The translations under genes were made by a program, and so were the position numbers. Shown here piece by piece: positions 16,301-57,184 of a stretch of 64,000 nt of DNA. Location: NCBI RefSeq assembly GCF_026151205.1, contig NC_087073.1:10920411-10984410 (forward strand), read 5' to 3'. Each line of letters begins with the position of its first letter. Positions within the stretch are counted from its first letter, which is position 1. The notes below the pieces were generated by a model. That model was not told the DNA's origin, did no database searches, and saw only the letters and a list, made by a program, of their open reading frames with translations. The stretch is from Bolinopsis microptera. Lineage: Eukaryota > Ctenophora > Tentaculata > Lobata > Bolinopsidae.

Positions 16301-17731
16301 AACAGAAACAGTAAACTTGTTGTGATTGGACGCTGCGCACTAGTGTTCTGTCTATCATGGAGTGAATCCTTTATAGTGAGCCTCCGACATCCTATAGATC
16401 TGGTGTCGGGAGATATTCCAAGCACTTATCATCTGAGATCAAGACGACAGTTTTTCTTGATTTATGTGTTTCACCTGTTAGAAGTGATAACCGTCACGGT
16501 TTTAGCAAACACTCTCAACTCTAAACGATGGATAATGGATTTGGGGTATGTATCGCTGCTACTATTTCTCGTATCTGGTGCAATGTATATGCTGTACTTT
16601 ACAGTTCTTAATCCAGACAAGACATCTAAATTATTGTCGGTTTCAATCAACCCCAGGTTGAAGCAGTTTGGATATAAATCCCAGGTGACCACCATCACTC
16701 GATTTTGTCATGTAACTGAAAAAGCAACAAAGATAAACAGCACAAAAGTCTACTCATCCAATCAGTATAATTACAGACTCCAAGTTCTAGATCCTTGTTA
16801 TGACTGCATGTTGGGTAGAGAACACACAGATAAAGATGAACCTGTTAATCAGAGCAAGTGCTGCTCACTATCAAGTTTTCTGAAGAAACTTAGAAACTGC
16901 TTTACTCGACCATTTAATAGCACTTACAGGAGACTCTCGCCCTCAATTAGTGATGCTGAGAATCTTGCTGAGAATCTTCAGTTGCGTCGTAAGGACGTGG
17001 ATTTGCTCATTACTAAAGTGAGAAAGTACGACAATATTCATCGTCATCAGATATATTTATTTCCTGGTATTGAGAACATTGAAAAAGTGGACCCCAAATT
17101 TATCTCGAGGTGTAGAGCGATTGGTTCAAATGTGTTCCGCAGTATTAATGATATCAGGGACGATGAGTTGAGTCCTAATCTCGTACCAGCGTGCAACAAA
17201 CTGAAAGGTAGAATAGAAAACAAGTACACTGATGCGACTGAAGGTGACATTCTCAATGATGAGCTGGTTGAACAGATCTGTGACCTCTGCGAAGAATACT
17301 TTTCCTTAAAAGAGCAGCAATGGGAAAATAAGGTTCTTGCCTGGTGTGAAACAGCTCCCACTGAGATTCTTACTAAATATGACAATGGAAAATGGGATTC
17401 AGCTCAATGTATAAAGGATATTGAGAAGTGGATAACAGAAAAAGAAAGACTTGCAGTATACTTGAACCCTTGTAATAATAACGCATCAAACCTTCCTGAC
17501 ACTACTATAGTGCTGTACGATGAGAAACACTCTAATTTCCACATCAACGGGGTTAAAACACCCTCAAAACACGGCTGGGTACTGAGGAACTGTTACCATA
17601 GAAACAGGGGGAATTCTTCATCAGGACAAACTGAGTATCAGCCTGTTGGACAAGATATTGTTGCCATAGAAACAGGACAAGATATTGTTACCATAGAAAC
17701 AGGACAAGATATTGTTAATTCAGCAGTTTAG
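13343..17731 (+). CDS. ARM-repeat / XK-like multi-pass membrane protein, gene A
   Basis: This is a 1462-residue open frame. Residues 1 to about 680 are helical ARM/HEAT-like repeats arranged in two near-identical super-units of about 307 residues (anchors: AILLFKYLGSIE near residue 52 and AILLNKYLGSIE near 356). Residues about 685-1090 carry some 8-10 hydrophobic segments. Their order resembles the XK/CED-8 family: a DIVLDI segment, an LQLHPL segment, then ILENVPCTLIKGIILYKF (like the family's LLE-PQL-LQ segment), then LFSTVYGILTLCYKVASFEELCR. Known relatives (Xkr4/8/9, CED-8) scramble plasma-membrane phospholipids in dying cells; that role here is inference. A polar tail of about 370 residues ends in three GQDIV repeats. 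An upstream exon exists, and the first methionine may lie inside a 68-nt intron (13,312-13,379), so the true protein is probably longer. Confidence 0.65.
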   Translation: MINTICSYEMSLGEDIVSLNQPRFVDILRNKHQLLREIISSDTSCKVTAAILLFKYLGSIEKSELLQLLIPPTNEMFTEGGIVKLATIIKAIPGEEEEFEKQVIREVVSADFISKFIEQYDSNTEEVYRRNLTYVISRVACLGDKAVRSSLVKSGVIKHLIITCEHCTDSEVMCNISATLQNIAYDKGDLSHVDHLVEEGVLTLISKLLQKWSEDDTVMVKLLVTLLNITCNRKDIEELIANSTEYGNIPLLLRGLLETASSDSVIDKTIKVIRNLVVGIDVLHTVFLHASFFTTAFRHLQSITLNSDSKQYLLCGIICTLANKNTDKMKALLIPYSQPLKELAKIGSDSVLSVNAAILLNKYLGSIEESELLQLLIPPTNEMFTEGGIVKLASNIKAIPDEEEEFGKQVIREVVSADFISKFIEQYDSNTEEVYRRNLTYVISRVACLGDKAVRSSLVKSGVIKHLIITCEHCTDSEVMCNISATLQNIAYDKGDFSHVDHLVEEGVLTLISKLLQKWSKDDTVMVKLLVTLLNITCNREDISELIANSSTTEEGNIPKLVTNIFQTSSNMKVLESTICCIDNMLHESMALHEHFSNKQLIDTCISRIRSDVLSSEYKFKILRFIVTKLTCNHPAKVAALLVPHTHSLKEIAELDTDSKLSRLAADLINTYLSCGEKRHKCVLVNTLFILNILKFFALYIVDIVLDIKVGINSVNDATLSTRYEGYCLLLFSILPLIYLNYQSVLRYYIQCWGMITVDPVISLQGSNRGRIMKFFFPWRFNSVKHTILNILTVLQLHPLITAFELVFHRSKKLSTIITNKFHFGRLSTQEKILENVPCTLIKGIILYKFIDNNKSDVDFSLGSDEYVTLFSTVYGILTLCYKVASFEELCRSADKSYPGALTTCQKLVSFIGVLLSLNSRLIMCLVLFSVMRDNGTMWIFTISVFLHILLSSVTHLLSHHEWQSPYDSSVKRKFVIKDFILKEGSNRNSKLVVIGRCALVFCLSWSESFIVSLRHPIDLVSGDIPSTYHLRSRRQFFLIYVFHLLEVITVTVLANTLNSKRWIMDLGYVSLLLFLVSGAMYMLYFTVLNPDKTSKLLSVSINPRLKQFGYKSQVTTITRFCHVTEKATKINSTKVYSSNQYNYRLQVLDPCYDCMLGREHTDKDEPVNQSKCCSLSSFLKKLRNCFTRPFNSTYRRLSPSISDAENLAENLQLRRKDVDLLITKVRKYDNIHRHQIYLFPGIENIEKVDPKFISRCRAIGSNVFRSINDIRDDELSPNLVPACNKLKGRIENKYTDATEGDILNDELVEQICDLCEEYFSLKEQQWENKVLAWCETAPTEILTKYDNGKWDSAQCIKDIEKWITEKERLAVYLNPCNNNASNLPDTTIVLYDEKHSNFHINGVKTPSKHGWVLRNCYHRNRGNSSSGQTEYQPVGQDIVAIETGQDIVTIETGQDIVNSAV

Positions 17732-17810
17732 TTTGTCAGTTTATATAATGTTTGAAGTTTATTGGTTTATGTGGTATTACTATTCTGGTACAATGTGGTC
17801 CGCCTCCTCC

Positions 17811-18310
17811 ATTCTAACTAGATATTTACAAATAAGTATTTAGAAACTTACATCACCTTAATAATCCCAGAATGTGTGTTTTCTGTTCGTCTGTGTGCGT
17901 GTAATTTCCGAGCGGCTTAATCAAGAAAACGGTAAGAGTTACGGGGCTCGCATATGTAGCTGCATCAATAGTGTAATTGGGTTACCCGGGTAAGATTCGC
18001 TGTCATATTATACTATAATCTTATTAGGTTATTAGGGGAGGGGCACTGTTTGGACTGCAAAGAGAGTTCATACTTTCATAAGACAATGTTATGCGTGTTC
18101 ACAAATATGATAGGCGGTTGTGGTGTTAAGGGTTAATTTCTATTGATTATTGTTTAAGATACTATTGTTTAAGATACCATTGGATACGTGAGGGCACTCC
18201 GAATAGAATTGCTCACCTAATGCGGGGTTTGACTCAACGGGTAAATACTAAATACTCCTACCTATTAATTCTAACTAGATATTTACAAATAAGTATTTAG
18301 AAACTTACAT
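17811..18310. repeat. 43-bp direct repeat flanking a 414-bp block unique to copy A
   Basis: A 43-bp sequence starting ATTCTAACTAGATATTTACA occurs at 17,811-17,853 and again at 18,268-18,310. Copy B has it once (61,791-61,833) with no intervening block. Either copy B lost the block by recombination between the direct repeats, or copy A gained it. The block has no recognisable coding content or terminal inverted repeats. Confidence 0.8.
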
Positions 18311-18545
18311 AATCTCATATCCTCTGTCTTATATTCAATAACCACACCTTGAAGTTCGATTGTGTAATCTATAAGTAATGATATTACTTTATCGGTAATA
18401 ATTAGGTAATCATGATATAATTCTATTAGAAATGATGTTACTTTATAATCTCAGTAATTAATGATAATGATATAATTTTATTAGAAATGATGTTACTTTA
18501 TTGATAATGATATTACTTTATTAGCACTTATATTACTTTATCAGA

Positions 18546-18551
18546 AATAAA
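18546..18551 (+). promoter_or_regulatory. Candidate poly(A) signal AATAAA downstream of gene A
   Basis: AATAAA lies about 815 bp after the stop and is conserved at the equivalent place in copy B (62,032). No transcript evidence is available, and a nearer non-canonical signal could be used instead. Confidence 0.3.
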
Positions 18552-19731
18552 GCAACATCATTACTACATTATTGGTGTGCAGCAGTTTTAATTTATAATA
18601 TGAACAGTGAATATCTCGGATGTACCCAGTACCCAAAAATAATCCCGCGTGCAAATGAACATTATTATGTTAATTACATTATTATGTTACATAACAATGT
18701 AACATTGATTACATTATTATGTTAATCACATTATTATGTTAATTACATTATTATGTTAATTACCCCTCTTGATAATGTATCTGGCTAGATGTTAAAACAC
18801 GTAGCTGAGATCGGTAATGCTGGAAGCTGATTGGTTAATCAATGACTCAATCTGTTTACCGCGTCTATAATATCTCTCCCAAGAGTATTACCATGGTAAC
18901 GCTACCATATAAGGTAATATTATGGTGGTATCCAGATCTCAGAGTTGAGTCTGCTTTTATTTGGATCTATCGGCAACTTATTTCCCTTTTTGTCGATATG
19001 ATCTATCTATAATACTATGAACATACTAATTATTTTGGTTAATTTGACCTGGGTACATCGCTTGCACCTTCTGAAATTCTTCCATCTATCCATCGATAGA
19101 AATCAAACTTATCTCTATAAATTTACCTTACGTTCGTAATGTCGCTTTTCTCCACGATTCTAATGTATTTACCAAATATATGTTCGTGATATGAGTGAAC
19201 AGTGAATGTTACTGCTTTATTGTTGGTGTATACTGTGTATATTCAGTTGAATACTACTACTTTTCTAACTGTATCTGAGCATATGTTACAGACTCGTTAT
19301 TTATACGTTTTACTTGTGTTTGATTAGTGAGTTTGTCTTCAATCAGACAATTAATTAATAAGATAACTAATTACCTTTTAAAACTTCGGTTTTAATCAGT
19401 GTTCAATTGTAAAGATCTTTCTAATTTCTAATATACATTATACTGCAGATAATAGTCAATAGTTTTATTATTTTATTCTAACAGTGAAATCATTTAACAA
19501 TATATGATATGTCTAGAAGATCAGATGATATCAGATACCAGACAGAGATCAGATGTTCAACTAAAACAGCGTTTCTGCACGTGCGACGAAATATCTGGTG
19601 AAGTGGTAAGTTAAAAACGTGCAGTATGATTGTTGTGAGATTAATTCTTTAAATCTACTTTTTAATAACCATCTGATTGTGTCTTATATTATACGTATAT
19701 TTCAATTCATATGTTGATCTCCTTAGTGACT

Positions 19732-20935
19732 GGGTAATGTATACACTACTTGTTGCAGTGTTAGCATTACTTCTGGGTAATGTATACACTACTTGTTGCA
19801 GTGTTAGCATTACTTCTGGGTAATGTATACACTACTTGTTGCAGTGTTAGCATTACTTCTGGGTAATGTATACACTACTTGTTGCAGTGTTAGCACTACT
19901 TCTGGGTAATGTATACACTACTTGTTGCAGTGTTAGCATTACTTCTGGGTAATGTATACACTACTTGTTGCAGTGTTAGCACTACTTCTGGGTAATGTAT
20001 ACACTACTTGTTGCAGTGTTAGCATTACTTCTGGGTAATGTATACACTACTTGTTGCAGTGTTAGCATTACTTCTGGGTAATGTATACACTACTTGTTGC
20101 AGTGTTAGCATTACTTCTGGGTAATGCATACACTACTTGTTGCAGTGTTAGCATTACTTCTGGGTAATGTATACACTACTTGTTGCAGTGTTAGCACTAC
20201 TTCTGGGTAATGTATACACTACTTGTTGCAGTGTTAGCATTACTTCTGGGTAATGTATACACTACTTGTTGCAGTGTTAGCACTACTTCTGGGTAATGTA
20301 TACACTACTTGTTGCAGTGTTAGCATTACTTCTGGGTAATGTATACACTACTTGTTGCAGTGTTAGCATTACTTCTGGGTTATGTATACACTACTTGTTG
20401 CAGTGTTAGTATTACTTCTGGGTAATGTATACACTTCTTGTTGCAGTGTTAGCATTACTTCTGGGTTATGTATACACTACTTGTTGCAGTGTTAGCACTA
20501 CTTCTGGGTAATGTATACACTACTTGTTGCAGTGTTAGCATTACTTCTGGGTAATGTATACACTACTTGTTGCAGTGTTAGCATTACTTCTGGGTAATGT
20601 ATACACTACTTGTTGCAGTGTTAGCATTACTTCTGGGTAATGTATACACTACTTGTTGCAGTGTTAGCATTACTTCTGGGTAATGTATACACTACTTGTT
20701 GCAGTGTTAGCACTACTTCCGGGTAATGTATACACTACTTGTTGCAGTGTTAGCATTACTTCTGGGTAATGTATACACTACTTGTTGCAGTGTTAGCATT
20801 ACTTCTGGGTAATGTATACACTACTTGTTGCAGTGTTAGCATTACTTCTGGGTAATGTATACACTACTTGTTGCAGTGTTAGCATTACTTCTGGGTAATG
20901 TATACACTACTAGTTGCAGTGTTAGCATTACTTCT
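19732..20935. repeat. 43-bp satellite, 28 copies (A)
   Basis: The unit begins GGGTAATGTATACACTACTT and ends TTAGCATTACTTCT. The array length of 1204 bp equals exactly 28 units of 43 bp. Units differ mainly by one T/C change (GCATTACT or GCACTACT). The same satellite follows gene B from about 63,218 and runs off the window. Each unit contains the palindrome GTATAC. Confidence 0.95.
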
Positions 20936-21049
20936 GGTTTGGTTCAGTCCATGGATTAGGACTAAATTAGACGCTGGAGACTAAATTATTATAGTATGTT
21001 TAGTTCACGCAATGTTTAATAACATCCGATTTTCTAATGTTCTAAATTA

Positions 21050-24611: not shown

Positions 24612-24635
24612 CTGATAGGATGAGGGTCTTATTAT

Positions 24636-25398
24636 AACCAATCAGAGCACAGTATTCACACCACGTGACACAAACTAACCAATCAGAGCACAGTACTCAC
24701 ACCACGTGACACAAAGTAACCAATCAGAGCACAGTACTCACATCATGTGACACAAAGAAACCAATCAGAGCCCAGTACTCACACCACGTGACACAAACTA
24801 ACCAATCAGAGTACAGTACTCACACCACGTGACACAAAGTAACCAATCAGAGCACAGTACTCACACCACGTGACACAAAGTAACCAATCAGAGCAAAGTA
24901 CTCACATCATGTGACACAAAGAAACCAATCAGAGCCCAGTACTCACACCACGTGACACAAACTAACCAATCAGAGTACAGTACTCACACCACGTGACACA
25001 AAGTAACCAATCAGAGCACAGTACTCACACCACGTGACACAAAGTAACCAATCAGAGCACAGTACTCACACCACGTAACACAAAGTAACCAATCAGAGCA
25101 CAGTACTCACACCACGTGACACAAAGTAACCAATCAGAGCACAGTACTCACACCACGTGACACAAAGTAACCAATCAGAGCACAGTACTCACACCACGTG
25201 ACACAAAGTAACCAATCAGAGCACAGTACTCACACCACGTGACACAAAGTAACCAATCAGAGCACAGTACTCACACCATGTGACACAAAGTAACCAATCA
25301 GAGCACAGTACTCACACCACGTGACACAAAGTAACCAATCAGAGCACAGTACTCACACCACGTGACACAAACCAACCAATCAGAACACAGTATTCACA
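24636..25398. repeat. 41-bp array of CCAAT + CACGTG units, about 18.6 copies
   Basis: The unit begins AACCAATCAGAGCACAGTAC and ends CTCACACCACGTGACACAAAGT. It lies in the last SMC2 intron. Every unit pairs an NF-Y-type CCAATCAG box with an E-box CACGTGAC; some units carry CATGTGAC. A four-unit block (164 bp) is duplicated, shown by the CATCATGTG variant at 24,741 and 24,905. A diverged relative sits near 31,944-31,980. Confidence 0.9.
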
Positions 25399-25548: not shown

Positions 25549-26030
25549 CTGGAGAGGAACACGTTTTAGTATTCCCTAACAGAGGAGTATAATTAGTATA
25601 ATTAGTATAATCTTACTATATATAAAGCGAGACGATATATATATATTTATTTATCCGTGCCATTTTACTGACACCACGGCATCAACTTTAACGCAACTTT
25701 CCGCAAAAACCGTAAAAGATATACAACTGAAACTTTTTTGACTGGGTCAAATGCTTTATAGGCCTTCAAATCAGCATGAAAAAATAAAAAATTGACCAAG
25801 GAATAATAATTTTAGTGCCCGAAATTTGGACTCCCAAGTGGTGTCAAAAACGCGAATTAAATAGGTAATAATTATTTTAGTCTCTCGAGTCTTGACACCA
25901 CTTTAGGGTTAGACGGGTTCCTGCTAGTTAGTATAATTAGTATAATTAGTATAATTAGTATAATTAGTATAATTAGTATAATTAGTATAATTAGTATAAT
26001 TAGTATGATAAGTATAATTAGTATAATTAC
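25549..26030. repeat. SMC2 intron with 9-bp TTAGTATAA repeat
   Basis: This intron separates the Walker B exon from the D-loop exon. A 9-bp tandem (TTAGTATAA) at about 25,928-26,030 runs right up to the splice donor (GACGAG|GTAATT on minus). A few more copies lie at 25,588-25,612. The middle (25,620-25,920) is unassigned AT-rich DNA with a short TA run. Confidence 0.85.
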
Positions 26031-26159
26031 CTCGTCCAGAATGTATAGAGGAGCGGGTTTGAAGAGAAGAAGAGATAAGATAAGAGAGAGGGCCACTAAA
26101 GATCTCTGTCCACCGCTCAATTCGGTTAGTGACTCTTTCCATACCTCACCGAACCCTAC
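26031..26159 (-). CDS. SMC2: SMC2 exon: ABC signature and Walker B
   Basis: The 129-nt, phase 0-0 exon runs between ATTGCAG|GTAGGG and GACGAG|GTAATT (minus strand). It encodes [20 protein letters not shown] and then a hydrophobic strand ending [13 protein letters not shown] is the ABC signature (C-motif) and ILDE completes Walker B; the glutamate is the catalytic base in this family. An intact head C-lobe argues that this part of the gene is functional. Confidence 0.95.
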
Positions 26160-26160
26160 C

Positions 26161-26400
26161 TGCAATTATAAGCTATTAAAGTAAGGTAGTATAGAACCCA
26201 ACCTGCAATTATAAGCTATTAAAGTAAGGTAGTATAGAACCCAACCTGCAATTATAAGCTATTAAAGTAAGGTAGTATAGAACCCAACCTGCAATTATAA
26301 ACTATTAAAGTAAGGTAGTATAGAACCCAACCTGCAATTATAAACTATTAAAGTAAGGTAGTATAGGTTTACAAAGTAACCTGCAATTATAAACTATTAA
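26161..26400. repeat. 43-bp array containing the SMC2 3' splice site
   Basis: About five and a half units of 43 bp, each beginning TGCAATTATAAGCTATTAAA. On the minus strand each unit carries the intron end TTATAATTGCAG followed by about nine exon-like bases (GTTGGGTTC, against GTAGGGTTC in the real exon). The real acceptor at 26,159/26,160 is the terminal member. A stray copy lies near 26,530. Confidence 0.88.
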
Positions 26401-26610
26401 AGCTTTAAAGTAAGACCAAGACAAAGCTACTTGTCTAAGTTGGGACAAACTCTAAAGAGGAACTGCGAACCCTGATGCGGGACAGGGATATATTGAGGGG
26501 GTTTTCTGGCGTAGATCGGACTAAGCTCCTACAATTATAAACTATTAAAGTAAGGTAGTATAGGTTTACAAAGTAAGATATGTTTACTTAGCAACAATAA
26601 CAACCTATAT

Positions 26611-29298
26611 AAAGATACAAACATTAGCACTTACCTTGACTTCTAAACCATTAGTAACAGGTCTCCCCTCCAAAGATATAAACATTAGCACTTACCTTGA
26701 CTTCTAAACCATTAGTAACAGGTCTCCCCTCCAAAGATATAAACATTAGCACTTACCTTGACTTCTAAACCATCAGTAACAGGTCCCCCCTCCAAAGATA
26801 TAAACATTAGCACTTACCTTGACTTCTTAACCATCAATAACAGGTCTCCCCTCCAAAGATATAAACATTAGCACTTACCTTGACTTCTAAACCATCAGTA
26901 ACAGGTCTCCCCTCCAAAGATATAAACATTAGCACTTACCTTGACTTCTAAACCATCAGTAACAGGTCACCCCTCCAAAGATATAAACATTAGCACTTAC
27001 CTTGACTTCTAAACCATCAGTAACAGGTCTCCCCTCCAAAGATATAAACATTAGCACTTACCTTGACTTCTAAATCATCAGTAACAGGTCTCCCCTCCAA
27101 AGATATAAACATTAGCACTTACCTTGACTTCTAAACCATCAGTAACAGGTCTCCCCTCCAAAGATATAAACATTAGCACTTACCTTGACTTCTAAACCAT
27201 CAGTAACAGGTCTCCCCTCCAAAGATATAAACATTAGCACTTACCTTGACTTCTAAACCATCAGTAACAGGTCTCCCCTCCAAAGATATAAACATTAGCA
27301 CTTACCTTGACTTCTAAACCATCAGTAACAGGTCTCCCCCCCAAAGATATAAACATTCGCACTTACCTTGACTTCTAAACCATCAGTAACAGGTCTCCCC
27401 TCCAAAGATATAAACATTAGCACTTACCTTGACTTCTAAACCATCAGTAACAGGACTCCCCTCCAAAGATATAAACATTAGCACTTACCTTGACTTCTAA
27501 ACCATCAGTAACAGGTCTCCCCTCCAAAGATATAAACATTAGCACTTACCTTGACTTCTAAACCATCAGTAACAGGACTCCCCTCCAAAGATATAAACAT
27601 TAGCACTTACCTTGACTTCTAAACCATCAGTAACAGGTCTCCCCTCCAAAGATATAAACATTAGCACTTACCTTGACTTCTAAACCATCAGTAACAGGTC
27701 TCCCCTCCAAAGATATAAACATTAGCACTTACCTTGACTTCTAAACCACCAGTAACAGGTCTCCCCTCCAAAGATATAAACATTAGCACTTACCTTGACT
27801 TCTAAACCATCAGTAACAGGTCTCCCCTCCAAAGATATAAACATTAGCACTTACCTTGACTTCTAAACCATCAGTAACAGGACTCCCCTCCAAAGATATA
27901 AACATTAGCACTTACCTTGACTTCTAAACCATCAGTAACAGGTCTCCCCTCCAAAGATATAAACATTAGCACTTACCTTGACTTCTAAACCATCAGTAAC
28001 AGGTATCCCCTCCAAAGATATAAACATTAGCACTTACCTTGACTTCTAAACCATCAGTAACAGGTCTCCCCTCCAAAGATATAAACATTAGCACTTACCT
28101 TGACTTCTAAACCATCAGTAACAGGTCTCCCCTCCAAAGATATAAACATTAGCACTTACCTTGACTTCTAAACCATCAGTAACAGGTCTCCCCTCCAAAG
28201 ATATAAACATTAGCACTTACCTTGACTTCTAAACCATCAGTAAGAGGTCTCCCCTCCAAAGATATAAACATTAGCACTTACCTTGACTTCTAAACCATCA
28301 GTAACAGGTCTCCCCTCCAAAGATATAAACATTAGCACTTACCTTGACTTCTAAACCATCAGTAACAGGTCTCCCCTCCAAAGATATAAACATTAGCACT
28401 TACCTTGACTTCTAAACCATCAGTAACAGGACTCCCCTCCAAAGATATAAACATTAGCACTTACCTTGACTTCTAAACCATCAGTAACAGGTCTCCCCTC
28501 CAAAGATATAAACATTAGCACTTACCTTGACTTCTAAACCATCAGTAACAGGTATCCCCTCCAAAGATATAAACATTAGCACTTACCTTGACTTCTAAAC
28601 CATCAGTAACAGGTCTCCCCTCCAAAGATATAAACATTAGCACTTACCTTGACTTCTAAACCATCAGTAACAGGTCTCCCCTCCAAAGATATAAACATTA
28701 GCACTTACCTTGACTTCTAAACCATCAGTAACAGGTCTCCCCTCCAAAGATATAAACATTAGCACTTACCTTGACTTCTAAACCATCAGTAAGAGGTCTC
28801 CCCTCCAAAGATATAAACATTAGCACTTACCTTGACTTCTAAACCATCAGTAACAGGTCTCCCCTCCAAAGATATAAACATTAGCACTTACCTTGACTTC
28901 TAAATCATCAGTAACAGGTCTCCCCTCCAAAGATATAAACATTAGCACTTACCTTGACTTCCAAACCATCAGTAACAGGTCTCCCCTCCAAAGATATAAA
29001 CATTAGCACTTACCTTGACTTCTAAACCATCAGTAACAGGTCTCCCCTCCAAAGATATAAACATTAGCACTTACCTTGACTTCTAAACCATCAGTAACAG
29101 GTCTCCCCTCCAAAGATATAAACATTAGCACTTACCTTGACTTCTAAACCATCAGTAACAGGTCTCCCCTCCAAAGATATAAACATTAGCACTTACCTTG
29201 ACTTCTAAACCATCAGTAACAGGTCTCCCCTCCAAAGATATAAACATTAGCACTTACCTTGACTTCTAAACCATCAGTAACAGGTCTCCCCTCCAAAG
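26611..29298. repeat. 61-bp array containing the SMC2 5' splice site, about 44 copies
   Basis: The period is 61 bp, repeated about 44 times with only scattered substitutions. On the minus strand each unit consists of about 41 nt identical to the end of the SMC2 exon (through GATGGTTTAGAAGTCAAG), then about 20 nt of intron beginning GTAAGTGCTAATG. The true exon junction at 29,257/29,258 is the outermost member. Reading on into the next unit meets a stop codon, so only the exon-proximal donor gives a normal protein. Confidence 0.95.
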
Positions 29299-29497
29299 TC
29301 TGCAGTTTAACCCTCGCTCCAGGAAGCAGCGTAGAGAATATAGAGCCGAAATCCTTGTTCACCTGCTCCCAGGCTCTCCTAACTGCCCGGTTCTTCTTCT
29401 CGTCCAGTTCCTTGATCACCTTGTTTATCTTGTGCTTGTCGTTAGTCACAATGTCTTTCCTTTTCACCAGGTCGATGTAACGTTTCTCCGCTTCTCC
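29258..29497 (-). CDS. SMC2: SMC2 exon: C-terminal coiled coil end and head entry
   Basis: It encodes (G)[14 protein letters not shown], a basic/acidic helical stretch, then [20 protein letters not shown] and VTDGLEVK, ending at the donor [20 protein letters not shown] is a strongly conserved SMC2 block just before the C-terminal ATPase half. The next exon continues VGFGEVWKE, giving a family-typical join. The 3' border is the first unit of the 61-bp array. The 5' border (CTGCTAG|GAGAAG) adjoins an 83-bp insertion. Confidence 0.92.
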
Positions 29498-29594
29498 TAG
29501 CAGGTGCATTGTTACCATAGTTACCATGGTTACACTACTAGTTACCATGGTTACACTACTAGTTACCATAGTTACACTACTAGCAGGTGCATTG
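29498..29594 (-). repeat. 83-bp minisatellite insertion within SMC2 coding sequence, 14-bp duplication
   Basis: TAGCAGGTGCATTG occurs at 29,498-29,511 and 29,581-29,594. Between them are about three copies of the 21-bp TAGTTACCATAGTTACACTAC-type unit. Without the 83 bp the coding sequence reads MRAMHLL then GEAEKRY, as expected for SMC2. Since 83 is not a multiple of three, the insertion breaks the frame unless spliced. I found no GT-AG pair that removes exactly these 83 nt. Confidence 0.85.
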
Positions 29595-31937
29595 CTCTCA
29601 TGTTCACATTCTTGGACAGTTTCTCTTTACTTGCCTTCAGACGCTCCAACTTCTTATCACTTTCTTTCAGGTCCTGTTTCTCAAAGTCGTAGGCAGTGTC
29701 CCTCTGTCCGAAGTACTGTTTTTCAGAAGCAATCCACTCATAGTTGTTGAGGTAATACTGGACCTGCTGCTTTGCTTCGCTCGCTTCCTTGTTCAGTTTA
29801 CTCAGCTTGTGGGTCAGCTCCTTCAGCTTTATCCCGCAGCTACTTATCAGCTTCTCCGCCGCTTTCTGCTCCTTCACAAAGTTTTCTATCTCAGCAGAAC
29901 ACTGTTGTATCAGTTCACGCTGAGCCCCAAGTTCAGCAGCCAGTGCCTCCCTCACCGCCGCGCACTCAGTCAGCTTTAACTGGGCTCCCTCAACAAGCTC
30001 CTGAGCAGCAGCTATAGCCTCCTCGCACTTAGGCAGCTGCTCTCGCAGACCCTCCAGCTCCTTAGCTAGCTCACTGCTCACCTCCAACTCTAGTTCTTTC
30101 AACTTGTTCACCTTTGCTTTCGCCTCCTTCGAACACTTGTTTAATTTACTCTTTGCGTCTAATATCCTCCTCTCCGACTTCTTCAGTTCTTTCTCTTGTT
30201 CAGATTTGAAGTTCTTCATCTTAGCTTCCACTTCCGCGCACTTCTTTAAGAGACTCTTTTCTTTGTCGTTAAAATTATCTACAATTTCCTTTTGCTTTGC
30301 CAGGTCCTCCTTAGTCCTCCTCAACTCCTCTATGTCCTTGTAATGAGAGGTCTGCTTCAATCTTTCTTCTAATAAATCACGCTCGTGCTTCTTCAGCCTC
30401 AGCTGACCTTTCAGTTCCTCCCACTCGTGGACAACTCTTTCCATTTTACTCAACTCTCCCTCTACCTGTCTGTACTGCTCTTTGTACTGAGTGAGATCAG
30501 ATCTGGACTGTTTGCAGGCAGAGAGTTCTTTAAGAACACATCTAGAAGTGTTCCTGGACCCTCCCGTTAGAGTACCTGCCGGATCGTATACATCTCCCTC
30601 CAGAGTAATAACCTTCCTCTTCACTGACTTGTCGAATGCTACTTTCTTAGCTTGCTCCTTAGTTTTACAGATGAGAACCCCTCCAAAACAGAACTTCATG
30701 GCCGGTTCCACCTGTTTATCAAACTGGATGACATCCAGAGCTAGGTGACAGTTGTCCCCACCGACCAGTCTCTTGGCACTGTTAACCACCTCCCTGTCTA
30801 TAACATTGCTGCGGATCTTGTTGAGGGGTATCATGACGTACCTTCTGCGGAGTTGGCCGTGTTTGATGAGCAGAGCACTGGTGTCCTCGTTGTCTGTCAC
30901 CACGTTATACAACCTCCCCCCAGCGGCAACCTCTAGAGCCATCGCGTACTGGTTATCCGGTACAGTGAAGAGATCAGCTACCAGTCCCTTTACACGGGAC
31001 CTATCAAAGTGCCTGTCTGGGGACACGTAGTCGAACTGGAGTTGCGGGAACTTGTTCACTAACTCGTTTACCTGTTTTGAAGCTTTAGCCACCTTGTTTT
31101 CTAGTTCACATTTCTCATTTTGTAGCTCACTATGCACCTCTTCATGAGAGAAGCCAAGCTTCTCAATTCTCCTCTCCACACCTTCCACAACTGTTACAGC
31201 CGTGTCAAACTCGCCCTTCTCCCGGGCTATTTCCCTCTCCGCCTTCTTGCAGTCATTCTCCATCTTCTTTATAGTGCTCTGAGAGTGTGCTAGTTTCAGG
31301 TTAGCTTGTTGGTTTGCTGTCTGTGCCTCGCTCAGCGAGTCTTTTAGCTTCATCAGATGTTCAGTGTAGGTCAGCTGCTCTCCGTCTTCTCCCTCCATCT
31401 GTCCCGCTTGTACCTGGGTGTAGTTAGACTCTGCTCTCTCCACGTTTCCTCTCTCTTTCTCCTCCAACTCCTTGTACTTCTCTGCCTCTTCTCTCACTGC
31501 TGTCAACTCCTCTGATTTATTAGAGATGAGTTTCTCAGTGTTAGCGATACTTCTCAACATGCTCTCCTTCTCCTTCTCCTCCTGTCTAACAGCGTCCAGC
31601 ACGTTATCCAGATCTGACGTAGCCTTTACCTCCCTCTTACTCATGTCCGTCATCTCAGTCTCCAGCTCCTCCAACTTAGAAGAAGCCTGTCCTTTCCTGG
31701 TCTGTTCCAATCTACAGATCTCCTCCTTCAGCCGTTCTATCTCACTCTTACTTGCACCCACTTCGTTATCCACGGTGTTTATCTGGTCCTGTAAAGACAG
31801 CACCTCCCCCGCTGCGTTCTGGTCCACGTGTTGAGCACGTGTGTATTTGTAGGCAACCACTAGTCGGGTTAATGTTTCTATGTGTCGCTGTATCTTCTGG
31901 TACTCCAAATAGGACGCTCTCTCTGCTTTCAGCTTCT
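29588..31937 (-). CDS. SMC2: SMC2 large exon: coiled coils and hinge
   Basis: About 780 codons follow the acceptor CACTTCAG|AGAAGCTG. In order they encode the start of the N-terminal coiled coil ([20 protein letters not shown]), a long coiled coil, the hinge ([20 protein letters not shown], then [20 protein letters not shown] and [15 protein letters not shown]) and the C-terminal coiled coil to [10 protein letters not shown]. This order and the hinge motifs identify SMC2 rather than SMC1, 3 or 4. The SMC2 hinge dimerises with that of SMC4 to form the condensin core. The exact 3' end is uncertain because of the adjacent 83-bp insertion. Confidence 0.95.
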
Positions 31938-32147
31938 CTGAAGTGAGCACAAATCAGAACCGAGTATTGGTAGCACGTGGTAATATGTGAGCACAAATCA
32001 GAAGACAGTATTAGTATTTATTAGTATTTATACAACGTGATAACAAATAAAATTGTAAATAACTCAGCAAACTAAGTTTGGTTGTGGGATAATAAAACAG
32101 TATAAAGAACAAGAGTATTGCTGTGTATTAAATAAATGTATATGTAC
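31938..32147 (-). other. SMC2 intron
   Basis: This 210-nt intron runs between CTCTTG|GTACAT and CACTTCAG|AGAAG on the minus strand, phase 1. It contains two imperfect GAGCACAAATCAGAA words with a CACGTGG, distant relatives of the 41-bp CCAAT/CACGTG unit. Confidence 0.85.
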
Positions 32148-32313: not shown

Positions 32314-32324
32314 CTACAGAGTTA

Positions 32325-32580
32325 CATTGATAGTTACCATAGTTACACTACTAGTTACCATAGTTACACTACTAGTTACCATAGTGACACTACTAGTTAC
32401 CATAGTTACACTACTAGTTATCATAGTGACACTACTAGTTACCATAGTGACACTACTAGTTACCATAGTTACACTACTAGTTACCATAGTTACACTACTA
32501 GTAACCATAGTTACACTACTAGTTACCATAGTTACACTACTAGTTGCCATAGTTACACTACTAGTTACCATAGTTACACA
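32325..32580. repeat. 21-bp minisatellite next to the SMC2 exon
   Basis: About 12 copies of TAGTTACCATAGTTACACTAC, with TAGTGAC variants, abut the acceptor of the exon at 32,148-32,313. The period is a multiple of three, which makes long open frames (repeated MVTSSVT) that are not genes. The same unit forms the 83-bp insertion at 29.5 kb, and degraded copies continue to about 32,900. Confidence 0.92.
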
Positions 32581-32679: not shown

Positions 32680-32930
32680 TACTGGTTACTATAGTTACAT
32701 TATTAGTTACCATAGTTACACTACTAGTTACCAAAGTTACACTACTCGTTACTATAGTTACACTACAAGTAAAAAAGAATAACAGTTACTATAGTTACAC
32801 TACAAGTAAAAAAGAATAACAGTTACCATAGTTACACTACAAGTAAGAAAGAATAACAGTTACCATAGGTGCGCTATAAATTACAAAAAATAATAGTAGT
32901 ATAGTTATCATAGTTAAAATAACTATTTTA
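32680..32930. repeat. Degenerate 21-bp units and AGTAAAAAAGAATAACAGTT repeats
   Basis: Diverged TTACTATAGTTACACTAC units alternate with CAAGTAAAAAAGAATAACAG (three copies at about 32,766-32,855). A related CAAGTAAAAAAGAATAAGAA occurs just after the SINE at about 33,215, so the SINE inserted within this repeat field. Confidence 0.75.
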
Positions 32931-32937
32931 CAATAGT

Positions 32938-33206
32938 AGCCGGGTGGTGTAGTGGTAACACGATCGCCTCCCAAGCAGAAGACCTGGGTTCAAATACGGT
33001 CGGATGCAAGTCGGCCAGTTACCAAGCTGTGATTTGGTACAGCTTCGGCTGGTGATACACACTCTCTGGCTCGTAGGACTAACCCCCCTACAGCTAGTAT
33101 AGTGCCTCGGCACAGAGTGGCTTAGGGTTACTGAAAAGGAGATAAGCACCTCAAGCCATCCCAACGTTCGGGAGAGACCTGGCCTTGTATCTTGTATCTT
33201 GTATAG
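32938..33206 (+). mobile_element. tRNA-Gly-derived SINE
   Basis: The head at 32,938-33,003 resembles a tRNA-Gly: A-box TGGTGTAGTGGTAACACG, anticodon region CCTCCCAAGCAG (CCC anticodon) and B-box GGTTCAAATAC. A body of about 180 bp follows, including GAAAAGGAGATAAGCACC, and a tail of TTGTATC repeats at about 33,184-33,203. This architecture (Pol III head, body, short-repeat tail) is that of a SINE. No clear target duplication was found. A long open frame on the opposite strand is incidental. Confidence 0.85.
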
Positions 33207-33656
33207 TTCCACTACAAGTAAAAAAGAATAAGAATGCTCGTTACCATGGTTACTAATTAGTCATTCCCAGCTCGCCCTGATCGCTAATTAGATTCACAAG
33301 ATTGTAGACGACTCTTCATGTCTAAATTGGTTCAGTATTTTAAATTGGTTATATGTTGACAAGATTGAGTTACAAAATCAAGAAGTAAACTCGCCTAACT
33401 ACACTGTTTTATTTTAAATATCTAAAATATAAATATGGATCTAAAAGCTTAAGATTAAAATTTGACGAGGGATTTGACGAGGCTTGAATCACAGTAAATT
33501 AGCCTTTTTATGATATCACAACGTTTATAATTAATGCCAAACAGAAACTTGTAGATTTATAATCTACCAAGACGCGCGCAGAAATGAACTCGTCGACAGT
33601 TTTGGTCAACTATCAGTAATTTGGTAAAATTTGGAAAGTTTTCCAGCACTACCTCG
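33207..33656. other. AT-rich spacer, nothing recognised
   Basis: No gene, no RNA signature and no repeat structure apart from AT-rich words. There is no SMC2 head coding sequence here on the minus strand. Confidence 0.5.
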
Positions 33657-35735: not shown

Positions 35736-38700
35736 CCCAGCTACGCAGCTACCCAGCTACCCAGCTACCCAGCTACCCAGCTACCCAGCTACCCAGCTAC
35801 CTAGCTACCCAGCTACCCAGCTACCTAGCTACCCGGCTACCCAGCTACCCGGCTACCCGGCTACCTAGCTACCCAGCTACCCGGCTACCCAGCTACCCGG
35901 CTACCCAGCTACCCAGCTACCCATTTACCCAGCTACCCAGCTACCCAACTACCCAGCTACCCAGCTACCCAGCTACCCAGCTACCCAGCTACCCGGCTAC
36001 CCTGCTACCCAGCTACTCAGTTACCCGGCTACCCAGCTACTCAGCTACCCGGCTACCCAGCTACCCAGCTACCCAGCTACCTAGCTACCCAGCTACCCAG
36101 CTACCCAACTACCTAGCTACCCAGCTACCCAGCTAATCAGCTACCCAGCTACCCGGCTACCCAGCTACCCAGCTACCCAGCTACCCAACTACCCAGCTAC
36201 CCAGCTACCCAGCTACCCGGCTACCCAGCTACCCAGCTACTCAGCTACCCGGCTACCTAGCTACCCAGCTACCCAACTACCCAGCTACCCGGCTACCCAG
36301 CTACCCAGCTACCCAGCTACCCAGCTACCCAGCTACCCGGCTACCCAGCTACCCAGCTACCCAGCTACCCGGCTACCCAGCTACCCAGCTACCCGGCTAC
36401 CCGGCTACCCAGCTACCCAGCTACCCAGCTACCTAGCTACCCGGCTACCCGGCTACCCAACTACCCAGCTACCCAGCTACCCAGCTACCTAGCTACCCAG
36501 CTACCCAGCTACCCAGCTACCCGGCTACCTAGCTACCCAGCTACCTAGCTACCCAGTTACCCAGCTACCCAGCTACCCAGCTACCCAGCTACCCAGCTAC
36601 CCAGCTACCCAGCTACCCAGCTACCCAGCTACCCAGCTACCCGGCTACCCAGCTACCCAGCTACCCAGCTACCCGGCTACCCAGCTACCCGGCTACCCAG
36701 CTACCCGGCTACCCAGCTACCCAGCTACCCAGCTACCCGGCTACCCGGCTACCCAACTACCCAGCTACCCAGCTACCTAGCTATCCAGCTACCCAGCTAC
36801 CCAGCTACCCAGCTACCTAGCTACCCGGCTACCCAGCTACCCAGTTACCCGGCTACCCGGCTACCCAACTACCCAGCTACCCGGCTACCCAGCTACCAGG
36901 CTACCCGGCTACCCAGCTACCCAGCTACCTAGCTACCCGGCTACCCAGCTACCCAGTTACCCGGCTACCCGGCTACCCAGCTACCCAGCTACCCAGCTAC
37001 CCAGCTACCCAGTTACCCAGCTACCCAGCTACCCAGCTACCCAGCTACCCGGCTACCCAGCTACCCAGCTACCCAGCTACCCAGCTACCCGGCTACCCAA
37101 CTACCCAGCTACCCAACCACCCAGCTACCCAGCTACCCAGCTACCCAGCTACCCAGCTACCCGGCTACCCAGCTACCCAGCTACCCGGCTACCCGGCTAC
37201 CTAGCTACCCAGCTACCCGGCTACCCAGCTACCCGCTACCCGGCTACCCAGCTACCCAGCTACCCGCTACCCGGCTACCCAGCTACCCAGCTACCCGGCT
37301 ACCCAGCTACCCAGCTACCCGGCTACCCAGCTACCCGGCTACCCAGCTACCCAGCTACCCAGCTACCAAGCTACCCGGCTACCCAGCTACCCAGCTACCC
37401 AGCTACCCGGCTACCCAGCTACTCAGCTACCCGGCTACCCGGCTACCCAGCTACCCGGCTACACAGCTACCCGGCTACCCAGCTACCCAGCTACCCAGCT
37501 ACCCAGCTACCCGGCTACCCAGCTACCCAGCTACCCAGCTACCTAGCTACCCGGCTACCCAGCTACCCGGTTACCCGGCTACCAAGCTACCCAACTACCC
37601 AGCTACCCAGCTACCCAGCTACCCAGTTACCCAGCTACCCAGCTACCCAGCTACCCAGCTACCCGGCTACCTAGCTACTTAGCTACCCAGCTACCCAGCT
37701 ACCCAGCTACCCAGCTACCCGGCTACCCAGCTAACCAGCTACCCAGCTACCCGGCTACCCAGCTACCCAGCTACCCAGCTTCCCAGCTACCCGGCTACCT
37801 AGCTACCCAGCTACCCAGCTACCCAGCTACCCAGCTACCCAGCTACCCGGCTACCCAGCTACCCAGCTATCCAGCTACCCGGCTACCCGGCTACCCAACT
37901 ACCCAGCTACCCAGCTACCCAGCTACCCAGCTACCCAGCTACCCGGCTACCCAGCTACCCAGCTACCCAGCTACCCGGCTACCCAGCTACCCTGCTACCT
38001 AGCTACCTAGCTACCCAACTACCCAGCTACCCAGCTACCCGGCTACCCAGCTACCCGGCTACCCAGCTATTCAGCTCTCCAGCTACCCGGCTACCCAGCT
38101 ACCCGGCTACCCGGCTACCCAGCTACCCAGCTACCCAGCTACCCAGCTACCCAGCTACCCGGCTACCCAGCTACCCAGCTACCCAGCTACCCGGCTACCC
38201 AACTACCCAGCTACCCAGCTACCCAGCTACCCGGCTACCCAGCTACCCAGCTACCCAGCTACCCAGCTACACAGCTACCCGGCTACCCAGCTACTCAGCT
38301 ACCCGGCTACCCAGCTACCCAGCTACCCAGCTACCTAGCTACCCAGCTACCCAGCTACCCAACTACCTAGCTACCCAGCTACCCAGCTAATCAGCTACCC
38401 AGCTACCCGGCTACCCAGCTACCCAGCTACCCAGCTACCCAACTACCCAGCTACCCAGCTACCCAGCTACCCGGCTACCCAGCTACCCAGCTACTCAGCT
38501 ACCCGGCTACCTAGCTACCCAGCTACCCAACTACCCAGCTACCCGGCTACCCAGCTACCCAGCTACCCAGCTACCCAGCTACCCAGCTACCCGGCTACCC
38601 AGCTACCCAGCTACCCAGCTACCCGGCTACCCAGCTACCCAGCTACCCGGCTACCCGGCTACCCAGCTACCCAGCTACCCAGCTACCTAGCTACCCGGCT

Positions 38701-40696
38701 ACCCGGCTACCCAACTACCCAGCTACCCAGCTACCCAGCTACCTAGCTACCCAGCTACCCAGCTACCCAGCTACCCGGCTACCTAGCTACCCAGCTACCT
38801 AGCTACCCAGTTACCCAGCTACCCAGCTACCCAGCTACCCAGCTACCCAGCTACCCAGCTACCCAGCTACCCAGCTACCCAGCTACCCAGCTACCCGGCT
38901 ACCCAGCTACCCAGCTACCCAGCTACCCGGCTACCCAGCTACCCGGCTACCCAGCTACCCGGCTACCCAGCTACCCAGCTACCCAGCTACCCGGCTACCC
39001 GGCTACCCAACTACCCAGCTACCCAGCTACCTAGCTATCCAGCTACCCAGCTACCCAGCTACCCAGCTACCTAGCTACCCGGCTACCCAGCTACCCAGTT
39101 ACCCGGCTACCCGGCTACCCAACTACCCAGCTACCCGGCTACCCAGCTACCAGGCTACCCGGCTACCCAGCTACCCAGCTACCTAGCTACCCGGCTACCC
39201 AGCTACCCAGTTACCCGGCTACCCGGCTACCCAGCTACCCAGCTACCCAGCTACCCAGCTACCCAGTTACCCAGCTACCCAGCTACCCAGCTACCCAGCT
39301 ACCCGGCTACCCAGCTACCCAGCTACCCAGCTACCCAGCTACCCGGCTACCCAACTACCCAGCTACCCAACCACCCAGCTACCCAGCTACCCAGCTACCC
39401 AGCTACCCAGCTACCCGGCTACCCAGCTACCCAGCTACCCGGCTACCCGGCTACCTAGCTACCCAGCTACCCGGCTACCCAGCTACCCGGCTACCCGGCT
39501 ACCCAGCTACCCAGCTACCCGGCTACCCGGCTACCCAGCTACCCAGCTACCCGGCTACCCAGCTACCCAGCTACCCGGCTACCCAGCTACCCGGCTACCC
39601 AGCTACCCAACTACCCAGCTACCAAGCTACCCGGCTACCCAGCTACCCAGCTACCAAGCTACCCGGCTACCCAGCTACTCAGCTACCCGGCTACCCGGCT
39701 ACCCAGCTACCCGGCTACACAGCTACCCGGCTACCCAGCTACCCAGCTACCCAGCTACCCAGCTACCCGGCTACCCAGCTACCCAGCTACCCAGCTACCT
39801 AGCTACCCGGCTACCCAGCTACCCGGTTACCCGGCTACCAAGCTACCCAACTACCCAGCTACCCAGCTACCCAGCTACCCAGTTACCCAGCTACCCAGCT
39901 ACCCAGCTACCCAGCTACCCGGCTACCTAGCTACTTAGCTACCCAGCTACCCAGCTACCCAGCTACCCAGCTACCCAGCTACCCGGCTACCCAGCTACCC
40001 AGCTACCCAGCTACCCGGCTACCCAGCTACCCAGCTACCCAGCTTCCCAGCTACCCGGCTACCTAGCTACCCAGCTACCCAGCTACCCAGCTACCCAGCT
40101 ACCCAGCTACCCGGCTACCCAGCTACCCAGCTATCCAGCTACCCGGCTACCCGGCTACCCAACTACCCAGCTACCCAGCTACCCAGCTACCCAGCTACCC
40201 AGCTACCCGGCTACCCAGCTACCCAGCTACCCAGCTACCCGGCTACCCAGCTACCCTGCTACCTAGCTACCTAGCTACCCAACTACCCAGCTACCCAGCT
40301 ACCCGGCTACCCAGCTACCCGGCTACCCAGCTATTCAGCTCTCCAGCTACCCGGCTACCCAGCTACCCGGCTACCCGGCTACCCAGCTACCCAGCTACCC
40401 AGCTACCCAGCTACCCGGCTACCCGGCTACCCAGCTACCCAGCTACCCAGCTACCCGGCTACCCAACTACCCAGCTACCCAGCTACCCAGCTACCCGGCT
40501 ACCCAGCTACCCTGCTACCTAGCTACCTAGCTACCCAGCTACACAGTTACCCAGCTACCCGGCTACCCAGCTACCCAGCTACCTAGCTACCCAGCTACCC
40601 AGCTACCCAGCTACCTAGCTACTCAGCTACCCGGCTACCCAGCTACCCAGCTACCCAGCTACCCGGCTACCTAGCTACCCGAATATCTAGCTACCC
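35736..40696. repeat. 8-bp satellite (AGCTACCC)n, right part, with 2.25-kb higher-order duplication
   Basis: About 600 copies of the 8-bp unit with sporadic variants. Rare variants recur at a fixed distance: AGCTAATCAG at 36,131 and 38,385, and ACCCAACCAC at 37,111 and 39,365, both 2254 bp apart. CTATTCAGCTCTCC recurs at 38,067 and 40,331, 2264 bp apart. A block of roughly 2.25 kb was therefore duplicated in tandem inside the array. Confidence 0.95.
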
Positions 40697-41043: not shown

Positions 41044-43183
41044 TACCTAGAGTACCTACCTAGAGTACCTACCTAGAGTACCTACCTAGAGTACCTACCT
41101 AGATTACCTACCTAGAGTAACTACCTAGAGTACCTACCTAGAGTACTTACCTAGAGTACCTACCTAGAGTACCTACATAGAGTACCTACCTAGAGTACCT
41201 ACCTAGAGTACCTACCTAGAGTACCTACCTAGAGTACCTACCTAGAGTACCTACCTAGAGTACCTACCTAGAGTACCTACCTAGAGTACCTACCTAGAGT
41301 ACCTACCAAGAGTACCTACCTAGAGTACCTACCTAGAGTACCTACCTAGAGTACCTACCTAGAGTACCTACCTAGAGTACCTACCTAGAGTACCTACCTA
41401 GAGTACCTACCTAGAGTACCTACCTAGAGTAACTACCTAGAGTACCTACCTAGTGTACCTACCTAGAGTACTTACCTACTGTACCTACCTAGAGTACTAA
41501 CCTAGAGTATTAACCTAGAGTACCTACCTAGAGTACCTACCTAGAGTACCTACCTAGAGTACCTACCTAGAGTACCTACCTAGAGTACCTACCTAGTGTA
41601 TCTACCGAGAGTACCCACCTAGAGTACCTACCTAGAGTACTAACCTAGAGTACCTACCTAGAGTACTTACCTAGAGTACCTACCTAGAGTTCCTACCTAG
41701 AGTACCTACCTAGAGTACCTACCTAAAGTACCTACCTAGAGTTCCTACCTAGAGTACCTACCTAGTGTATCTACCGAGAGTACCCGCCTAGAGTACCTAC
41801 CTAGAGTACTAACCTAGAGTACCTACCTAGAGTACCTACCTAGAGTACCTACCTAGTGTACCTACCGGGAGTACCTACCTAGAGTACCTACCTAGAGTAC
41901 CTACCTAGAGTACCTACCTAGAGTACCTACCTAGAGTACCTACCTAGAGTACCTACCTAGTGTACCTACCTAGTGTACCTACCTATAGTACCTACCTAGA
42001 GTACCTACCTAGAGTACCTACCTAGAGTACCTACCTAGAGTACCTACCTAGTGTACCTACCGAGAGTACCTACCTAGAGTACCTACCTAAAGTACCTACC
42101 TAGAGTACCTACCTAGAGTACCTACCTAGAGTACCTTCCTAGAGTACCTACCTAGAGTACCTACTTAGAGTACCTACCTAGAGTACCTACCTAGGGTACC
42201 TACCTAGAGTACCTACCTAGAGTACCTACCTAGAGTAACTACCTAGAGTACCTACTTAGTGTACCTACCTAGAGTACTTACCTACTGTACCTACCTAGAG
42301 TACTAACCTAGAGTACTAACCTAGAGTACCTACCTAGAGTACGAACCTAGAATACCTACCTAGAGTACCTACCTAGAGTACCTACCTAGAGTACCTACCT
42401 AGTGTATCTACCGAGAGTACCCACCTAGAGTACCTACCTAGTGTACTAACCTAGAGTACCTACCTAGAGTATTTACCTAGAGTACCTACCTAGAGTACCT
42501 ACCTAGAGTACCTACCTAGAGTACCTACCTAGTGTATCTACCGAGAGTACCTACCTAGAGTACCTACCTAAAGTACCTACCTAGAGTACCTACCTAGAGT
42601 ACCTACCTAGTGTACCTACCTAGAGGACCTACCTAGTGTACCTACCTAGAGTACCTACCTAGAGTACCTACCTAGAGTACCTACCTAGAGTACCTACCTA
42701 GAGTACCTATTTAGAGTATCTACCTAGAGTACCTACCTAGTGTATCTACCGAGAGTACCTATCTAGAGTACCTACCTAGAGTACCTACCTAGTGTACCTA
42801 CCTAGAGTACCTACCTAGTGTACCTACCTAGAGTACCTACCTAGAGTACCTACCTAGAGTACCTACCTAGAGTACCTACCTAGAGTACCTACCTAGAGTA
42901 TCTACCTTGAGTGCCTACCTAGAGTACCTACCTAGAGTACCTACCTAGTGTACCTAACTAGAGTACCTACCTACAGTACTAACCTAGAGTACCTACCTAG
43001 AGTACCTACCTAGAGTGCCTACCTAGAGTACCTACCTAGAGTACCTACCTAGAGTACCTACCAAGAGTAACTACCTAGAGTACCTACCTAGAGTACCTTC
43101 CTAGAGTACCTACCAAGTGTACCTACCTAGAGTACCTACCTAGAGTTCCTACCTAGAGTACCTACTTAGAGTAACTACCTAGA
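41044..43183. repeat. 13-bp satellite (ACCTAGAGTACCT)n
   Basis: About 160 copies with scattered variants (TAGTGTACC, CGAGAGTACC, AAAGTACC). Variant combinations such as TAGTGTATCTACCGAGAGT recur several times, indicating internal block duplications. The same unit appears as decayed patches at 1.8-2.05, 2.9-3.3 and 8.8-9.3 kb. Confidence 0.95.
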
Positions 43184-57118: not shown

Positions 57119-57184
57119 TAGCTAACAGTACAGAGTACGGAGATATACCTCTACTCCTACAAGGGTTATTAGAAACAGCTTCCA

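Follow-up and report, generated by a model that had tools for sequence, protein, structure and literature searches.

Tandem repeats that extend across exon-intron boundaries are known from several systems. In lancelets such repeats were named "mirages" in Adh3 and occur in globin genes at 5' and 3' boundaries, where reverse-transcription PCR suggests regular splicing (BflGb6 and BflGb9) and the number of units differs between haplotypes (PMC3087553); they are also present in PGBD5 and troponin C (PMC3902484). In human IFI6 (6-16), a minisatellite at an exon end supplies several donors (Turri 1995 as cited in PMC4526556), and 27 intron modifications are reported for minisatellite expansion at exon-intron boundaries in human segmental duplications (PMC2812944). 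Tandem duplication has supplied splice sites in Drosophila, in potato RdRp and, through repeat expansion, in Cryptococcus (PMC2395259, PMC2891723, PMC4974935), and the choice among identical splice sites has been studied with duplicated-site constructs (PMC5389562). Here we analyse a 64-kb stretch of the genome of the ctenophore Bolinopsis microptera (contig C2; "the window"), whose minus strand carries a copy of SMC2 ("the window copy"). As an earlier note on this DNA had claimed, both junctions of one SMC2 intron, intron 3, have been amplified into minisatellites: 44 units of 61 bp at the donor and an array of 43-bp units at the acceptor, and the units of both contain the exon-intron boundary.

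The gene was recognised by an open exon of 793 aa (29572-31953, minus strand), whose best match in the PDB is SMC2 (E 3.9e-121) and with which the best-matching database protein, P0001, shares 100% identity across 99% of the exon. A model of six exons, built on the outermost sites of intron 3, gives a translation that includes P0001 exactly. It comprises, all on the minus strand, exon 1 (32313-32148), the large exon 2 (29580-31937), exon 3 (29258-29496), which ends at the authentic donor, exon 4 (26031-26159), and exons 5 and 6 (25548-25418 and 24611-24485); exons 2 to 4 were also placed by tblastn of P0001. Four of the five introns have GT-AG borders, the second (83 nt) being the one without. 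The gene had been called a conserved cell-division gene, SMC2, and the PDB match bears out the name; however, it is one of at least seven copies, and a search of the window for exons encoding residues up to ~152 gave no hit. Nor was there a separate N-terminal Bolinopsis protein among the best 120 of 2,514 database matches.

Intron 3 as annotated (26160-29257, minus strand, from the exon model with P0001) is a GT-AG intron of 3098 nt, 92% of which is array according to Tandem Repeats Finder (TRF). The donor array on the minus strand has a period of 61 bp and 44.1 copies in TRF (26611-29298), or 44 x 61 bp (26611-29294) when the unit table is added, in agreement with the roughly 44 GTAAGT-bearing copies first noticed. 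Cut at exactly 61 bp, the 44 units show 21 substitutions and no indels, and GTAAGT is intact in 44/44. On the coding strand each unit is the tail of the exon, ..CTTTGGAGGGGAGACCTGTTACTGATGGTTTAGAAGTCAAG, joined directly to GTAAGTGCTAATGTTTATAT. The proposed composition of 41 nt of exon plus 20 nt of intron is possible, but a division into the last 37 nt of exon 3 plus 24 nt of intron fits equally, because CTTT is present at both edges. The authentic junction unit lies at 29234-29294 (minus strand). Six of the 21 substitutions fall in the four units nearest the intron and none in the five nearest the exon (a raw count). The U1 duplex energy of the array donor (-11.7 kcal/mol) makes it the strongest of the gene's five donors, the others ranging from -3.5 to -8.0.

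At the other end of the intron the acceptor array (26151-26366, minus strand; TRF and site list) has the expected period of 43 bp and nine exon-like bases per unit, with 5.0 copies in place of the suggested ~5.5. Each unit contains a branch-like TTTAAT (identified by eye) and TTATAATTGCAG, and carries TTTAATAGYTTATAATTGCAG, with TTGCAG, before the nine exon-like bases. Seven TATAATTG(C/T)AG sites were found in intron 3, namely the real acceptor and six decoys, of which five end in CAG and one in TAG. The extra acceptor-like sites of the site list (26332-26529, minus strand) end at 26529 (TAG), 26381 and 26332; the first two are 148 nt apart (26529-26381), and the next interval is a 49-bp step common to another SMC2 copy (C9:165k). 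The nine exon-like bases of the internal repeats are GTTGGGTTC, and those of the real exon of the window copy are GTAGGGTTC, a synonymous difference. A chance origin of the two arrays is excluded by their length and identity.

Among the 308 possible pairings of donors and acceptors (44 x 7), just one, formed by the outermost sites, preserves the C-terminus in full and hence the normal protein, as had been supposed. The decoys, previously put at about 44 donors and several acceptors, amount to 43 internal donors and six acceptors, and all of them lose the C-terminus: none of the 43 internal donors yields it with any of the seven acceptors, the first donor joined to a decoy acceptor leads to an early stop in 6/6 cases, and reading through beyond the first donor meets a stop after 14 codons. 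The authentic site is taken to be the copy at the intact exon, as judged by coding capacity alone (1/308, and the model containing P0001). The innermost pair (26529-26634, minus strand) would leave an intron of 106 nt with a broken frame, a decoy in the window copy which matches the inner intron of three sister copies; recognition from the intron side and from the exon side therefore predict opposite products. In RNA, we consider it likely that splicing mainly joins the outermost sites.

A protein search of the same genome located SMC2 stretches on C2, C9 and C13. Seven copies were compared (window, C9:283k, C9:111k, C9:165k, C9:235k, C13 and C2:10998k), and all seven contain repeats of the donor unit. 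The number of units is 44 in the window copy, 26 in C9:283k, 36 in C9:111k, 27 in C13, 15 in C9:235k and 84 in C2:10998k; the donor set of C9:165k is broken and stands outside this count, with donor patterns matching 22-24 times. Across the six copies with a readable exon edge GTAAGT is kept in 228/232 units, and mean identity of units to the consensus is 98.6-99.3%; in some of the other copies the unit is 60 nt long. The 61-bp unit has 285 matches in the genome, and the places among the matches listed fall within SMC2 copies, or next to them, on C2, C9 and C13. A further site with SMC2-like 61-bp donor units was seen at C9:178407-178536.

The acceptor side differs among these copies. C9:283k, C9:111k and C9:235k each have a single acceptor, 106 nt from the last donor; C9:165k has two, through a duplication of 49 bp, and the window copy has seven. 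C2:10998k has one matching acceptor site, after a different stretch, and the examined stretch of C13 has no matching acceptor, with other sequence beyond its array. Because three copies have one acceptor, one copy has two and the window copy has seven, the acceptor array probably grew later than the donor array, in steps and as two separate events, the order being read from what the copies share. In the four sister copies in which the acceptor region is shown the exon starts with GTTGGGTTC; the internal units of the window copy have thus probably retained the ancestral sequence, and the change probably took place in its real exon. N-terminal exons with the P-loop were located on C13 (L015:4462-2089); no SMC2 copy is complete in the stretches examined, which for the copies other than C13 and the window copy extend little or not at all upstream, and the examined C13 stretch is without exons 4-6. 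The ratio of nonsynonymous to synonymous substitution rates (dN/dS) is 0.05-0.13 for residues 417-830 in six pairings of four copies, and by this measure the coding part is constrained.

SMC2 proteins of relatives offer an outside view of the donor. P0002, P0241 and P0254 were taken as open frames that read through the SMC2 donor. Past it, no second exon-like stretch follows in P0002 (14 codons), P0241 (39) or P0254 (19), so that, as far as these proteins can be read, the three relatives are without a second donor unit. P0241 (79% identity over 68% of a 104-aa query) and P0254 (85% over 53%) both read past the same LEVK. P0002, which is 90% identical, continues beyond the donor as VTANVYLYVGYYCY; its tail and stop agree with the flank on the far side of the 44th unit at 41/45 nt, after a 2-nt deletion, versus 37/45 nt for an internal unit (none of 2,000 random stretches exceeded 37, and their 99th percentile was 29). 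The P0002 test leans to a single-copy state without proving it.

The arrays were very probably produced by tandem duplication at the edge of a short intron, followed by growth without selection, and we are similarly confident that they represent two independent minisatellites of the mirage type on that one intron. The process would have begun with a duplication between a CTTT 41 nt inside exon 3 and a CTTT 20 nt inside the intron, which would have copied the exon end in tandem together with its donor; the CTTT at both edges would thus fit a duplication seeded by microhomology. Slippage or unequal exchange could then have expanded the donor array to the 15-84 units counted in the different copies. 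In the window lineage the acceptor would have been duplicated first as 49 bp and later as 43 bp x 5, as the states in the sister copies suggest. Recognition across the exon would favour the exon-side donor and acceptor, and the remainder would be removed as intron. Such an array would be tolerated because the copy beside the intact exon always remains a perfect site. The donors are probably not kept by selection; their intact state would reflect the youth and homogenisation of the units.

The same process appears to act at other junctions of the genome, and for this reason we regard junction duplication, with good confidence, as a general route of intron growth in this genome. We searched for the donor motif MAGGTRAGT in triple, with gaps of 20-50 between the three motifs, using the reversed motif of equal composition as a control. 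Genome-wide, 647 + 838 = 1,485 triples were found versus 47 + 4 = 51 for the reversed pattern, and single motifs numbered 10,382 versus 8,307 (1.25-fold). Provided that no two matches share a start, which holds for those listed, ~14% of donor 9-mers start a triple versus 0.6% in the control. The stricter CAAGGTRAGT gave 134 triples versus 0. With a gap of 51-52, the SMC2 arrays themselves largely fall outside these patterns. Among the matches listed, which extend up to 21.7 Mb of C1, there are eight donor arrays on C1, all of which were inspected. In four of them (428.6k, 4183k, 15829k and 17646k) the units repeat 23 nt or more of the sequence that precedes the first donor, and an open frame of 56-72 codons lies upstream; these four are candidate junction arrays at exon edges. 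The arrays L063 (C1:15829 kb), L060 (C1:4183 kb, minus strand) and L064 (C1:17646 kb) have units of 38, 44 and 23 bp, respectively, which repeat 23-45 nt of the open exon-like stretch. We presume that the L063 exon resembles DPH2.

At L028 (C1:428573-430927) a 54-bp donor array with at least 44 AAGGTAAGT stands at the end of a Sushi-like exon, whose Pfam match is below threshold (17.9 bits versus a cut-off of 20.7), and more cysteine-rich, exon-like sequence was noticed by eye downstream. A Pfam search of four other C1 exon pieces returned no match, and of two C1 pieces searched against the PDB one was without a match and the other gave a weak, unrelated-looking hit to FabZ (E 0.21). Another large array on C1 (859558 to at least 863817) has units of ~38-43 bp with TTCCCCTCAGG and GCAGGTGATAAC, that is, acceptor-like and donor-like sequence within one unit. 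TRF repeats make up 13% of the genome of another ctenophore, Hormiphora (PMC8527503), and cover 37% of the window.

Several observations weigh against this account. The matches to the triple pattern are not independent, because one array gives many, and for four of the eight C1 arrays a repeated exon is not shown: in 1998k, 12064k and 21732k the repeat comprises 7 nt or fewer, and in 6659k 35 nt are repeated, with no open frame longer than 31 codons in a piece that starts inside the array. Acceptor-like triples are in excess as well (3,458 versus 553 in the control), but the matches listed represent one large array. The use of the outermost SMC2 sites is something we infer, because P0001 may be a prediction. 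For P0002, the nucleotide fit to the flank requires the 2-nt deletion, and the local amino-acid score is 46 for the internal unit versus 42 for the best single frame of the flank. We also asked whether a block of 9 units had been duplicated within the window's donor array and dropped the idea, since the lag signal is weak (235/5,000 shuffles reach the observed value). Finally, the published assembly of the species, whose annotation drew on Iso-Seq, was made with wtdbg2 (PMC10232365), and unit counts are uncertain if that assembly is identical to the one analysed here.

Plain geometry might produce much of the same picture: in a genome rich in arrays and with short introns, duplications would hit junctions by accident, with no attraction to splice junctions. 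Tandem arrays occupy 37.4% of the window (TRF; the union of 42 stretches from 52 rows, the remainder overlapping), and a random 61-bp duplication that touches a 106-nt intron spans one or the other junction 72% of the time. However, arrayed consensus donors outnumber the reversed pattern by 1,485 to 51, whereas single donors exceed their control just 1.25-fold. This excess may itself have a geometrical cause, because real donors lie at intron edges, and geometry is compatible with junction duplication followed by unselected growth; as a full account we regard it as possible, if somewhat doubtful.

Selection for long introns, one of the causes first considered, is not needed, given the 72% figure and the distribution of variants. 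Of the 45 variant types seen across six copies, 28 affect the exon portion of the unit and 17 its intron portion (p = 0.88), and the donor 9-mer holds 4/45 versus 6.6 expected (p = 0.40), with no depletion. The decoy sites look unselected. In the window copy alone, 2/14 variant types lie in the intron part (p = 0.06), a hint of selection on the donors that is gone over the six copies. These figures also speak against a regulatory role, in which the decoys would divert transcripts into nonsense forms, the copy number would tune SMC2 output and the donors would be selected. That the C-terminus is lost in 307/308 pairings and that the array carries the gene's strongest donor would suit such a regulator, but with neither the donor 9-mer nor the intron part depleted of variants, 15 to 84 units among closely similar copies and a single acceptor in three of them, we consider it improbable.

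That the assembler created the arrays or their copy numbers is more improbable still. The use of wtdbg2 for the published assembly, odd homopolymer runs at the array edge of C9:165k and the 60-nt units of some other copies are what an artefact might leave behind, but the window's 44 units are free of indels, there are distinct shared and private variants, the repeats occur with differing counts at seven loci on three chromosomes, and arrays of the same kind stand at unrelated loci; a simple artefact was judged unlikely on these grounds. A mobile, introner-like element, with the 61-bp or 43-bp unit transposing and carrying splice sites along, is likewise very improbable, for although a different repeat, a 21-mer, does recur within introns of SMC2 and also interrupts one of its exons, where exon sequence is duplicated, the 61-bp unit holds SMC2 coding sequence and stays, among the matches listed, in or beside SMC2 copies, and the eight C1 donor arrays are built of other units.

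This 21-mer marks the intron-2 site of SMC2. In the window copy an 83-nt insertion of 21-mer repeats (29497-29579, minus strand) lies between 15-bp direct repeats of exon sequence; it is omitted from P0001 and lacks GT-AG borders. The site is uninterrupted in C9:283k, C13, C9:235k and C2:10998k and in the proteins P0002 and P0317. In C9:111k (L010, about 109.1-111.5 kb) it is occupied by a 21-mer array of ~2.4 kb among which fragments of exon are scattered, and exon pieces are duplicated at the site in both the window copy and C9:111k. When GT-AG choices with a donor within 200 nt and an intron of at least 40 nt were tried, a single one reproduced the corresponding stretch of P0003, namely the removal of 2,381 nt with the donor GTAACT and the acceptor AACTAGTAG, both derived from the 21-mer. 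For the window copy, the frame is not preserved by any GT-AG intron of usual size (there are three options, the longest of 41 nt), and its allele may therefore be frameshifted, polymorphic or mis-assembled. The marks of intron gain in the sense of Rogers, an uninterrupted site in relatives and paralogues and a flanking duplication, are seen at this site, which looks like a candidate intron birth and is the sole SMC2 site resembling a gain. The 21-mer was also noted upstream of SMC2 exon 1 (32320-32579 and 32680-32907), ending 6 nt before its acceptor.

It is tempting, and we offer this tentatively, to extend these observations to Bolinopsis as a whole, perhaps to ctenophores at large: junctions would be repeatedly amplified, with about 1 in 7 consensus donor 9-mers in a donor array, and this would be a main route by which introns both grow and arise. 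On this view a birth would have been caught in progress at the intron-2 site of SMC2, uninterrupted in four copies, holding 83 nt in one and ~2.4 kb of 21-mer in another, where the repeat itself supplies the donor GTAACT and a TAG acceptor and an annotated protein omits it as a GT-AG intron.

Other repeats lie in and around the window copy. A 41-bp array (24635-25398, minus strand; TRF) accounts for 764/806 nt of intron 5; it starts 19 nt past the exon edge and does not span the junction, and intron 5 contains 17 GTGAGT. In intron 4 a 9-bp array (25928-26029, minus strand; TRF) begins at the second base (GTAATTATAC..). Elsewhere in the window there are an 8-bp array of 618 units (35736-40680) and a 13-bp array of 165 units (41044-43183), and a stretch between arrays (32928-33260) looks by eye like a tRNA-derived short interspersed element. 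The regions 13316-20937 and 55869-64000 appear, from the lists of open reading frames and TRF repeats alone, to be a segmental duplication, with similar genes, long open frames and a 43-bp array after each.

The SMC2 copies provide a natural test of splice-site choice, since six closely similar copies present 15 to 84 near-identical strong donors, together with one, two or seven acceptors and, in the window copy, one protein-making pair. With donor arrays present at further exon-like edges, the growth of introns through junction minisatellites would become open to measurement, and the genome holds graded stages of possible intron birth.

Compared with the systems described so far, the locus is closest to the lancelet mirages: each SMC2 unit likewise joins the edge of an exon to the splice site at that boundary, and donor and acceptor are both affected. 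We therefore file it as mirage-like, with regular splicing, suggested for the lancelet genes, predicted for SMC2; between paralogues of one assembly the number of units ranges from 15 to 84. The earlier note knew of no described system in which satellites are seeded at both ends of an intron. To say that nothing similar has been described would go too far, because mirages, IFI6 and the repeats of segmental duplications are known; what stands is that the literature searched, in its accessible portions, reports no intron with both boundaries amplified into minisatellites. In IFI6 two downstream units are reported to be used, giving isoforms (PMC4526556), whereas in SMC2 0/43 internal donors give the full C-terminus. 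The human segmental-duplication repeats share with SMC2 the expansion at boundaries in recently duplicated paralogues, but they average 30-bp units x 4 and can lead to new introns or alternative splicing (PMC2812944), whereas the long SMC2 arrays lengthen an existing intron; unlike the intron gains by tandem duplication, SMC2 intron 3 already existed and then grew. Lancelet mirages have 2-7 units (PMC3087553 and PMC3902484, as far as their text is accessible), and SMC2 has up to 84. Unlike them, too, the SMC2 case belongs to a ctenophore and involves both boundaries of one intron, paralogues at different stages and a genome-wide signal, and it is these both-ended arrays, their size, the staged paralogues and the genome-wide scale that are new.

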